Assembly (NCBI GenBank): GCA_029247265.1
Contig: JAQWLN010000057.1
Coordinates: 1 to 53,180 of the forward strand
Direction: 5' to 3'
Length of the DNA stretch: 53,180 nucleotides
From: Fuerstiella sp.
Lineage (GTDB): Bacteria > Planctomycetota > Planctomycetia > Planctomycetales > Planctomycetaceae
Each line of letters starts with the position of its first letter. The first letter of the stretch is position 1. Position numbers and translations under genes: made by a program. Below, piece by piece: positions 14,362 to 32,400 of this stretch. The notes beneath the pieces are model-generated. The model was not told the DNA's origin, ran no database searches, and saw only the letters and a list, made by a program, of their open reading frames with translations.

Positions 14362-15243
14362 CTATGCTGACAGGTGCGACCGTGACCATTCAAGAATGAC
14401 CGCCAGCCATTGCTGTGCCTTTGGGCTGTCGTTTGCAATCGCCGACGAATCAACCATCTCAAGAGCAGCCAGCCCGGCTGCAAGCAGAAACTCCGGCAGC
14501 AGTTCCTTCTCCTGGGTACTCAATGGCCGTTCGCGCTCATAGCCTTGCAGAAACGATTCCAGAAAATCATTCGTATCAGGATGGTGTTTTGCAGCCAGCA
14601 CCGCGGGCCATGTGACATCGAACAGGAAATGTCCCCAGCCCACGTCATCCAAATCAACAATCCAGATCGTCTCACCATCAAAGATCAGATTGTCGCCGTG
14701 AAAATCTGCATGGATCAGTCCGTAGTTCCGGCGGTCCCGTGGTAGTCCTGCACTGATGCGTTTTGTTCGATTGGCGGCTCGTTTCAATATTTACTTATCC
14801 GTCTCACTGACGGGTGAGCTGGAAAGAAATTGGTTCAGCCATTCGTTCTCGGCAGTGACATACACGTCATCCCAGGCACGGAATTTACTTTCATCGGGCG
14901 GATCATACTGCTGCGATCGAACGTGAAGACGGGCCAGCAATTCACCAGACCTTTCGACCTGCCTATCCCTGGCCCTGGGGCCCAGCGTATCGCCGTCAAT
15001 CCATCGAGACATGACCGCCTGCCTTTGCTGTCCGTCAGCGCGAACGCTGGCAAAACGGCATCCTGACTTTGTTGCGATCACTGAAGGGACACTCAATCCA
15101 CCATCACGAAGGAATTCCACAAAATGCAGCCGGGAATTTACGTCCGCAGCCGTGTGATTGCTCACCAGGACCTTCAGGAAGGTTTCGCCTCAAAACGGGC
15201 CAGTTGTTTTCGATGGCAGGTCGTTTCGCAAAGGTTTGTGCTG
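14362..15243 (-). pseudogene. APH-family kinase gene broken by in-frame stops
   Basis: The translation matches aminoglycoside phosphotransferase/homoserine-kinase-like small-molecule kinases. The C-terminal half has the catalytic loop LIHADFHGDN and the metal-binding IVDLDD. The N-terminal half has ETFLKV and GGLSVPSVIATKSG. The two halves lie in the same frame but are separated by TAA at 14791-14793. Further upstream TGA at 15190-15192 interrupts the N-lobe (LPSKTTGPF-stop-GETFLKV). Family members usually run about 300-350 residues without stops. Start codons available after each stop (GTG 15165, TTG 14787) would give only half-domains, so a working kinase is unlikely. The remnant directly follows the PhyH gene in the same frame, suggesting a former phyH-kinase operon. 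The former substrate is unknown. Confidence 0.75.
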
Positions 15244-19412: not shown

Positions 19413-19946
19413 CTATTTCTTCGGGATCTTCAGTTCGGTCAGTTTGGCCACAAGATCCTCGCCGTGACTGCCGGCTTTCACCTTTTTGTCGACGTGCTTG
19501 ATCTTTGCGTCGTCACCAATGATGAACGTCCATCGTTCAGGAACCTTCCGTCCCTCGTGAACGACTCCATAAGCCTCGGCAACTTTTTTGCCGGGGTCGC
19601 TGAGGATCGCGTAATCGAGTTCCAGTTTTTTCGCAAATGCCGTGTTGTCTTCCACGCTGTCACAACTCGCTGTGAAATAGGTAACTTTGAATTCGCGGAT
19701 AGCTTCGCCGTTCGCACGGAACGACAGACACTCTTTGGTTCAGCCACCGGTAAATGCTTTGGGATACCAGGCGATTACGACCGCCTGCTTACCCTTAAAA
19801 TCCGCAAGTTTGTATGTTTTCCCATCACTGCCCTTCAGCTTGAAGCCCGGAGCATCATCTCCGGGTTTCAAATCGGCGGCACTGGACATGTTGATTCCTC
19901 CTGCCAAAACGGTTGCGACCAGACCCAAGGCGAAAAATCGTTTCAT
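19413..19946 (-). CDS. Exported peroxiredoxin with TGA (selenocysteine) at the peroxidatic position
   Basis: Read through one TGA (19740-19742), this is a 177-residue AhpC/TSA-type peroxiredoxin that would reduce peroxides using an external thiol donor. Features in order are a signal peptide (MKRFFALGLVATVLAGGINM, cleaved near SSA-ADL), then LKPGDDAPGF, then VVIAWYPKAFTGG-U69-TKEC. After these come FTASCDSVEDNTAFAKKL, LDYAILSDPGKKVAEAYGV and the closing VPERWTFIIGDD. Other peroxiredoxins have Cys exactly where U69 stands (T-x-x-C), with a possible resolving Cys at C73. The frame is intact on both sides and a SECIS-like hairpin follows. ATG 19946 is preceded by AGGAG. If the TGA is a true stop, the gene is dead. 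The alternative is a Cys-to-stop pseudogene, but the exact position and hairpin favour selenocysteine. Confidence 0.75.
19706..19726 (-). promoter_or_regulatory. Candidate bacterial SECIS hairpin
   Basis: On the minus strand, TGTCGTTC and GAACGGCG pair over 8 bp (two G-U pairs) around the loop CGTGC. There are 21 nt between the TGA (19740-19742) and the loop. Bacterial SECIS elements sit in the coding region just after the UGA, with the apical loop roughly 16-37 nt away and a G among the first two loop bases. Both conditions are met here. The fold was made by eye; energy and covariation are untested. Confidence 0.55.
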
Positions 19947-20180
19947 CCTGGAAATCTCCTGTGTGAAAGAATGCGGCATTGCGCCGCGCGAGGTGTGACT
20001 TGCCCATTGTTGCCAAAGTTCCACCGAAACCGCCACGCTGCCGCAGCGATTGACGCGGACTTTTTGCGAAACCGGCTTCAGCATGCTGAAATCGCAAACA
20101 GCCGGGGCGTATCCAGACAGCGACGGTTTTGGCCCTCTTCATCCACGGACGGCAGCTGTGATGACTGGGCGGACGCGGCG

Positions 20181-29465: not shown

Positions 29466-32400
29466 TCATTCCGTTAAGAGATTATTCGCCCGGGAGCGTA
29501 TTTGTTCGACGCTGTGTTCCAGCAGCGATTGACGTTCCTGCGGCTGCAGCACCAGCTTGTTCTGCCGCAGCAACGTCGTCAATGCTGCGGCTCGTTCATT
29601 CGTGCGCAGCAGGCCTTCTATGGCAAGGAAGCGATTGCGACCTTCAAGATAGCTGAGCGATGTTGTCAGAGCGACTATGACTTCCGTTGATTCAACGTCC
29701 ACAAGACCACTCACGGCGCCCATTTGAAGTTCAGGATTTGTGCCTTTGGTCAGATATTTCAACAAGTGTGGAACGGCGTCCTCTTCGTCCATCAAAGCGA
29801 CCATCCGCAGGGCGTCGTACCGTGTACCGGCTCGAACCTGGTCATCGTGGGCCATTGCAGCAGACAGTTGTAACATGGCAGGCCAGCGTGCATTGACCAC
29901 AGGCAAGCCGTCGAGAATCTCGGACAGGCGTCGCTTCGGCCAGAAGCCAAGCTGTGATGCGCCGTTAACAAGTCCGCCGCCAATCACCACAGCCTGCCAG
30001 TCGCGCAGAGAACTGCCTGCTGCGGGGACGCTGGTTTCCAGAACGTCACGGATCTCGCCGCCGTCGTTGCGTTTTCCTACAGCGATGGCGACTCGCCACA
30101 GCCACGGGATGCGTTGGTATTCGTTGTCGACATCACCGGTTTTGATTCCCGCAGCCAACAACGAAATAATACCGGGACCCATGCCAGGTCGCTGGTCGAT
30201 CACTTTCTGGCGGCGTGCCACAGGCTGAGATTCGTCCAGCAGGAAGGGAGTGATCTCCGGCGGATACCGGGGCAACGGTGTTTCCGTGAGACTGGCTGCC
30301 GCAAACCCAGGTTGCATTCCGACCGGAACCAGTCGCACTTCGCGCAGATCAAACAGCGCCTGTTTTACCGGACCATCCGGACGAACGATGATGGCCTGGC
30401 CGCCGGAGTTCAGCCGCGTCGTTCCGATTTTCTGTTGTCGGTATCGATCCCATCCTCCCGTTTCTGCAACTGTACCACTGACCGGTTCAGCGATGCCGTC
30501 GATGCGAAACTGATTGCCAGCTGCCGCCGTGGCGCAGGCTGCGTCGATATAGATGTCGTACTTGCCGGACTTTGGCAGCCGCACTTTCCAGGTTGCCGAA
30601 TCCTCCTGGTGATGCCAATAGCCGATATTGGCAAACGGTGCTTCAAAGGTAATATCGCTTCCGCGAAGCTCAGCAGAAACAGCCGTCAGCAACAGACGGT
30701 CCTGTTCATCCGGGGTGATCGTTTTTGGTTCATTTCCTGGCAGGTGCTTGGGAGGCGCTTCGAAGCTTGCCAGATAGGCAATCACGTCGCTGAAATCCTG
30801 AGCCGACATGTCGCGCTCCAGTCCTTCCGGCATCACAGAACGTTCCGACGAACGAAACTCCTCAAGTTCGCTTCGCGGAATCAGGTGCTCCTTCCCGCCG
30901 GCCTCACGCAGAAGTATCGAATCTACGGATTCTTTGACAATCATGCCGGAAGCCGTTCGTCCGTCGACTGTCACGGCGGTCCACGCCACATAGCGAGCAT
31001 CGACTTCTTTGTTGGGATCAAGGATTGTCGTCAGCAGCCAGCGCGGGTCGCGATTCGTCAGCGCCAGCAAGTCAGGGCCAACGACGTGACCATGGTCTTC
31101 AAGCTTGTGGCATGTGGAACATCGTTTCTTAAAAACGTCCCGGCCACGAGGTGCGTTGCCGTTCATGCTGATCACATCGTCCAACGACTTCAGCACCGCT
31201 GCACGACTCGACGTGCCGGAGGCATTGAATACTCGTTCGGCGGCAGTGCGCACATCCGCATTGGTACTCGACAGCAGTTTACTGTGTCGTGCGGCGTCCA
31301 GGATTTCAGGCCGAATTCTGCCTGATTCGATGGCTGACAGCAGTTCCAGCATGCTGCTGTTTCGGCTCATCAGTTCATCAGCAATCGCCAGACGCGATTC
31401 CGCTCCGACGGCCGCATAGGCGTTCAATAACATCGGAGTGGTGCCACTGGCTGCAGTACTGGACAGGGCCGTGATGGCGGCTCGTTGAATGGCGCCTGAA
31501 TGTCGTGCTGATATCAGTGAGGCAGTGGCTTCAGCACGTTGCGCTGGCCGGAACGTTTCACGACTTGTGTCGTCGTTAACAACTCGCGTTGTCATCAGAC
31601 CATAACTTCGCCCCAACAGGCTGAGAGCTGCCATTTGCACGTCATCCGGCTCATTGGCGTTGGTAATTGTGTCCATGGCCTTCTTATGCAGCTCGCGCAG
31701 GTGTTGAGCCGTGGAAGAGGTGAGCTGTAGCTGAGCCGTCGCCGGCCGCGAGTCCAGGCCGTCCAAAGCTGCGGCCAGAAGTGCTGCGGCTTCGTGTGAT
31801 AGCGATCCATTGTCGAAATTCTGCAGACACACCTGCAACGCTCGCTCGACCGCGGCCGAATCTCCCACACGAACGGCCAGCAACAAAAGGTTGCGGCGAA
31901 TGTTATTCGTTTGTTCAGCAGCAGGGCGACCCAGATAGGCATTCAGAACCGAATTGATGTTGTCTGCACTCACGGAGTTCAGAGCTGCCGAGCGCACATA
32001 TGGGTCGGGTTCTGCCGCGCTGATCAGTGTGCTTAATATTGCGGCGGCGCCCGGAACGGCTTGCCCCGGTCTTCTATTTGCGCCGATTGAAAGAGCTACC
32101 TGGCGTCGTACCCGGACGCTGTCGGCGTGTGCCAGCGCAGCAAATCGGGACTGCAGTTCTGCATCGTTTTTCAGTAAACGTTCGGCAAGTTGCACGGCGA
32201 AACGCACGACTTCGGGTATGTCTGAGTCCAACGCTTTCGCAACATCAGTCGGAAGCAATTGCCCCAGTCCGTCCAACGCCGCCAGAGCCTGGATTTGTGC
32301 CGCGGGCCGGTCCGATTTTTCAGCGACCATTCGGATTTTCGGAGCGATGGATTTCACCGACCGCCAGACCAGCATCTGATGGGCAAGATCGCGAATCGTT

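Follow-up and report, generated by a model that had tools for sequence, protein, structure and literature searches.

Peroxiredoxins in which selenocysteine (Sec) occupies the peroxidatic position have been listed, either under the motif TxxU or simply as Prx, in the available text of several papers (PMC1088965, PMC2398784, PMC1794560, PMC9312934 and PMC13188914). The parts seen of these and a related study count 43 Prx in the Sargasso Sea (PMC1088965), 253 in GOS (PMC2398784) and 91 in 78 organisms (PMC5029168), and the available text of PMC9312934 cites a Sec-peroxiredoxin of Eubacterium acidaminophilum. Sec machinery and selenoproteins have also been reported in planctomycetes (PMC4807772, as far as its text was available); the word peroxiredoxin is absent from the main text of that paper, whose selenoprotein table is a supplement.

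Here we describe a gene in a 53,180-nucleotide stretch of DNA (the window, which is the whole of contig C1) from a Fuerstiella sp. genome of 6.53 Mb in 280 contigs, 90.5% complete. Judging from sequence and its comparison among relatives, we are confident that a Fuerstiella-like planctomycete here has an intact selenoprotein gene, encoding a probably exported PrxQ/BCP-like peroxiredoxin in which a SelB- and hairpin-directed UGA would specify Sec69. With the TxxU Sec-peroxiredoxins (COG1225 / PF00578), compared by description in the accessible text, it has in common the AhpC-TSA domain, the T-x-x-U motif (here TGGU), the predicted peroxidatic Sec and an in-frame hairpin past the UGA. The original prediction had stated that Sec at this position is known in bacterial peroxiredoxins, and this agrees with the TxxU family as given in the parts seen of PMC1088965 and PMC2398784; because such proteins are already described there, we regard the gene as a further member of a known family. 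Planctomycetes are not named as hosts in the available portions of the five papers listed first above. PrxU (NCBIfam NF040737) belongs to the same superfamily and is another branch, since the window protein scores 46 bits where the cut-off is 270. The best match in both sequence and fold is to PrxQ/BCP, in the form of Bcp1 of Sulfolobus (3drn), from which the window protein differs by a probable signal peptide, by the predicted Sec in place of Cys and by a second Cys at +4. Less usual here are the size of the clade, the Cys at Sec+4 in all 125 distinct loci and the apparent mark that the RNA signal has left on the protein sequence.

A reading frame crossed by TGA at codon 69

The gene and the features of its first half are as follows.

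19413..19946, minus strand: Sec-peroxiredoxin gene of 177 codons plus a TAG stop, frame read with TGA as U (AhpC-TSA, E 1.2e-32)
19740..19742, minus strand: UGA predicted to be read as Sec69, at the peroxidatic position (TGA 68, TGC 51, TGT 6 in 125 distinct loci)
19878..19946, minus strand: probable signal peptide, residues 1-23, judged by eye from the translation; pLDDT of the structure model is low over residues 1-20

Re-reading the minus-strand frame gave PKAFTGG, then TGA, then TKECLSFR, just as predicted. When the TGA is read through, a profile search places the AhpC-TSA domain at residues 28-151 (112.9 bits, cut-off 26), and codon 69 is the single in-frame TGA between 19946 and 19413. 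A plain ORF scan delivers the gene as separate halves (20084..19740 and 19655..19413), the splitting that had been foreseen for ordinary gene calling. The window has 535 stops flanked both before and after by 25 or more open codons, and of all these the TGA at codon 69 has the best two-sided codon score. An NHL-repeat gene lies upstream on the same strand and a convergent GH57 gene downstream; an Rfam search of the window gave zero matches and a plasmid search (237 records) gave matches below 60% identity only.

We located codon 69 in 140 loci: L001, L025-L049, the best 80 of 159 loci found among genome contigs (L089-L168) and further loci (L169-L202) from those family genomes, 50 out of 170, that gave a match at 1e-40. 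The codon is TGA in 83, TGC in 51 and TGT in 6, and dropping 15 TGA loci with an identical 200-nt window left 125 distinct loci, with TGA in 68. Codon 69 is thus TGA or Cys in every distinct locus and the frame is intact, with no decay in relatives, in accord with the claim that the TGA sits at the peroxidatic Cys position. Four more distant paralogues (L050-L053), which were excluded from the 140, all have Cys there. Two records titled Fuerstiella sp. (L089 and L090) are identical to the two nearest relatives, and the other titles in the set are Planctomycetota, Verrucomicrobiota, Acidobacteriota, Actinomycetota and, for Cys forms, Pseudomonadota.

A single base change separates TGA from TGC or TGT, and the well-supported clade that holds the Sec form of the window also contains Cys forms (G004, G005 and G012), as might be expected if a Cys-to-stop mutation or a sequencing error had made a pseudogene of a Cys peroxiredoxin. 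We hold this to be highly improbable, given the identical TGA in 68 of the 125 distinct loci, a hairpin tied to the TGA (below) and the constraint on the second half of the gene: past the TGA, dN is 0.029 against a dS of 0.49 in comparison with L025, and by this measure purifying selection persists downstream of the codon. The in-frame "stop" codon is instead very likely read as Sec.

On the best tree the Sec/Cys label changes nine times. Bootstrap trees built without the trait columns give 8-9 changes, at least five of them forced by starred branches, and those built with all columns give 8-10, at least three of them forced. Three Sec-Prx genes from records titled Terriglobia and Acidimicrobiia (L098, L101 and L104) form one clade (100/97) beside two planctomycete genes (98/84), which reflects either gene transfer or mislabelled or misbinned contigs.

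Elsewhere in the window we ranked the two-sided coding stops and read 11 of the 25 listed by eye. The stop at 29466 was rejected as a selenoprotein codon, this TGA standing directly before the ATG of the next frame, and none of the rest of the 11 looked selenoprotein-like. A phosphotransferase-like gene (Pfam APH, PF01636; 14365-15189, minus strand) is split by an in-frame TAA at 14791-14793; separate searches with its two halves hit the profile at 25-135 (E 1.2e-5) and 154-232 (E 2.5e-11), and it is either a pseudogene or an assembly error.

The hairpin past the TGA and the selenocysteine machinery

Two lines describe the candidate decoding signal.

19706..19726, minus strand: predicted bacterial SECIS hairpin (present in 64 of the 68 TGA loci and in none of the 57 Cys loci; covariation)
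19719-19726 with 19706-19713, minus strand: stem; loop CGUGC at 19714-19718, with GU at 19717-19716

The window hairpin has eight pairs, of which the outermost (U.G) is unconserved and the other seven are conserved, and a 5-nt loop with G in second place followed by U, separated from the TGA by 21 nt; stem, spacing and loop base are as originally described. The bSECIS model, as given in the available part of PMC13188914, sets a loop of 3-9 nt with a G as its first or second base, an upper stem of 4-16 bp, a UGA-to-loop distance of 16-37 nt and an MFE of at most −7.5 kcal/mol, and the window hairpin (−9.2 kcal/mol for 31 nt, −11.6 for 53 nt) shows no departure in any of these. Its stability is no better than that of shuffled sequences (z −0.17 for 53 nt, −0.03 for 81 nt and −1.36 for 31 nt). 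Of the folding and covariation checks proposed at the outset, only the second came out in favour, and in the TGA set only; the case for the hairpin rests on comparison because single-sequence folding gave it zero support.

A rule asking for a loop 21 nt past the codon, an unbroken run of six or more pairs and GU at the second and third loop bases is satisfied by 64 of the 68 TGA loci and by none of the 57 Cys loci, where synonymous codon shuffling with each gene's own usage leads one to expect 0.49 and 0.06 loci, respectively. The codon for Arg77 is CGT in 63 of 64 TGA loci versus 5 of the 26 Cys loci with Arg there (Fisher 7.9e-15). RNAalifold predicts the same stem from the TGA set, with double changes in four of seven pairs, and no structure from the Cys set. 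Of the cells in the 57 distinct TGA rows, 86.4% are paired, and the covariation score is 0.289 versus 0.138 in shuffled alignments (0/500 as high), with the numbers of double-change pairs (5) and pair types (11) not above shuffles (140/500 and 135/500); the 57 Cys rows have 52.0% paired and a score of 0.112 versus 0.105 (150/500). All these tests ignore relatedness. On the tree built without trait columns, five independent Sec/Cys pairs on well-supported branches are concordant for the hairpin in 4.5 cases and discordant in 0.0 on average, five pairs being too few to reach 0.05. Taken together, these alignments indicate that loci with TGA retain the hairpin, with compensatory change, and that loci with Cys do not.

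Four TGA loci fail the rule: L042 has a hairpin in the usual place that is bulged, L049 has five pairs, L148 has CGG in the loop, and the fourth is L142. At 2708-2767 of L142 the common hairpin is absent and another stem lies nearby, with eight pairs, an 8-nt loop and −21.5 kcal/mol for 60 nt. This relative departs from the bSECIS model as outlined in the accessible part of PMC13188914; its genome has a selB match of 368 bits, and the stem is possibly a second SECIS form.

The genome of the window encodes SelB (315.6 bits, above cut-off; 661 aa with a SelB-wing_3 domain), SelA (435 bits, in a search that covered this genome only), a tRNA-Sec (73.4 bits; called tRNA-SeC with anticodon tca by ARAGORN) and SelD, adjoining the tRNA-Sec gene, so that all four of the components to be searched for, selA, selB, selD and selC, were found. 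An open frame alone does not tell which residue is inserted, and UGA might be read as something other than Sec through an altered genetic code or plain read-through. Against this, the alternative state is Cys in 57 of 57 non-TGA loci, both Trp codons of the gene are TGG with codon 69 its only TGA, and the Sec machinery is complete; we give such decoding very little credence and retain Sec as the predicted residue.

Across the set, selB scores above cut-off for 61 of 68 Sec loci versus 26 of 56 Cys loci (Fisher 1.5e-7), in a hand tally that leaves L164 out of the Cys loci (same bin as L159) and in which some Sec loci represent their genome via an identical duplicate. The seven Sec loci for which selB was not found above cut-off, in draft genomes, are L033, L102, L107, L119, L163, L175 and L190; matches below cut-off occur in G021 (L033), G096 (L175) and G228 (L163). 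A search for tRNA-Sec at 1e-7 found none in two TGA-bearing genomes, G007 and G017, and like the missing selB matches this speaks against the Sec reading. In G248, a genome titled Pseudomonadales whose peroxiredoxin (L158) is a Cys form, a selB-like match of 238 bits, just under cut-off, on contig 5 (63571-64500) contains four TGA and one TAG and is perhaps a decayed selB.

Regarding gene order, in L014 (539-2823) selA is followed by a pyridine nucleotide-disulphide oxidoreductase (Ndh-like) frame that ends soon past the peptide LDDRGFIAT, and the contig with selD (L017, 3-1518) opens with a frame that begins with LDDRGFIAT, ahead of selD and then tRNA-Sec. In 16 of 32 selD-bearing genomes the selD match lies inside an open frame of 741-849 codons, and these frames resemble the Ndh-SelD fusions named in the available text of PMC2398784. 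Because the peptide is common to both ends and selD-bearing genomes have such Ndh-SelD-like frames, selA, ndh-selD and selC probably form one cluster that the assembly has split.

Family, catalytic residues and proposed mechanism

Three further residues enter the argument.

19728..19730, minus strand: Cys73 (Sec+4), candidate resolving residue (Cys in 125/125)
19662..19664, minus strand: Cys95, third Cys (57/68 Sec forms, 19/57 Cys forms)
19533..19535, minus strand: Arg138, probable catalytic Arg (Arg in 125/125)

T66, Cys/Sec69, Cys73 and Arg138, the last of which we take to be the catalytic Arg of peroxiredoxins, are each kept in all 125 distinct loci, and T66-G-G-U69 matches the T-x-x-U motif. 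A structure model built from 41 sequences with the TGA entered as Cys has a mean pLDDT of 91.2. Its best solved-structure match is 3drn (sequence E 5.8e-21, TM 0.76 by query length); in the fold search Bcp/PrxQ chains come top among PDB entries, with AhpE and Prx1 chains slightly lower, and the NCBIfam BCP model NF006960 scores 90 bits, under its cut-off of 140. Since the BCP model stays below cut-off and AhpE and Prx1 chains are nearly as close, we call the protein a PrxQ/BCP-like branch of AhpC/TSA and not PrxQ.

The usual place of the second Cys in PrxQ is +5 from the peroxidatic residue. It is at +5 in the four PrxQ-like paralogues L050-L053 and at +4 in all 125 distinct loci. Not all PrxQ have their second Cys at +5 (PMC5302317, in the part available). 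Sec69 may act without Cys73, as a 1-Cys type or with Cys95 or an outside thiol, a tentative alternative that finds encouragement in the +4 spacing, in Cys95 being present in 57 of 68 Sec forms and in TM-scores of AhpE chains to the model that are similar to those of PrxQ. Cys73, however, is present in 125 of 125 loci versus 76 of 125 for Cys95. The association of Cys95 with Sec (p 7e-9) was set aside because independent tree pairs show no link, averaging 1.6 for and 1.1 against. Cys73 is thus the best candidate to resolve Sec69.

The sequence itself shows the position of the codon, the machinery, the hairpin with its covariation and the purifying selection. In the mechanism that we infer from it, which also covers the insertion of Sec, the export of the enzyme, its substrate and reductant and the residue that resolves Sec69, SelB carrying Sec-tRNA(Sec) would bind the hairpin whose loop starts 21 nt past the UGA, with the loop GU as its likely contact, and the UGA would be decoded as Sec69. 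Sec69 would replace the peroxidatic Cys and reduce peroxides outside the cytoplasm, probably being resolved by Cys73. The original prediction of a working, exported enzyme is in keeping with this scheme.

Residues 76 and 79 and the RNA signal

In the hairpin, columns 22 and 32 of the alignment form a pair between codon 76 (its first base) and codon 79 (its second base), and a switch from C-G to U-A that keeps this pair therefore replaces both residues. Among the 68 Sec forms, residues 76 and 79 are Leu/Ser in 45, Phe/Asn in 21, Phe/Ser in one (L187, an intermediate with a U.G wobble) and Leu/Gln in one, versus 23 combinations among Cys forms. Leu/Ser or Phe/Asn is found in 66 of 68 Sec versus 4 of 57 Cys forms (Fisher 7.3e-28, ignoring relatedness). 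Among Sec rows the pair changes nine times on the best tree; the count of separate events is uncertain because only two independent Phe/Leu switches lie on well-supported branches. We consider it likely, on this evidence, that in this clade the SECIS hairpin determines part of the amino-acid sequence next to the active site, holding Sec forms to Leu76/Ser79 or Phe76/Asn79 and leaving Cys forms free. Apart from PMC4807772, open-licence literature on planctomycete selenoproteins and on covariation or synonymous change in bacterial SECIS elements (titles and the starts of abstracts) yielded nothing on this clade or on coupling of residues 76 and 79.

The gene indicates that Sec-peroxiredoxins of this kind are a large group, found for the most part in metagenome-assembled planctomycete and verrucomicrobial genomes, whose genes a plain ORF scan splits. 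Sec and Cys genes are separated unusually cleanly in this set, 64 of the 68 Sec genes having the RNA signal and none of the 57 Cys genes, and what an in-frame SECIS costs an evolving protein thereby becomes measurable. If the coupling of residues 76 and 79 is real, the approximately nine Sec/Cys changes would amount to natural replicates for studying the constraint that a decoding signal within the frame places on an enzyme.
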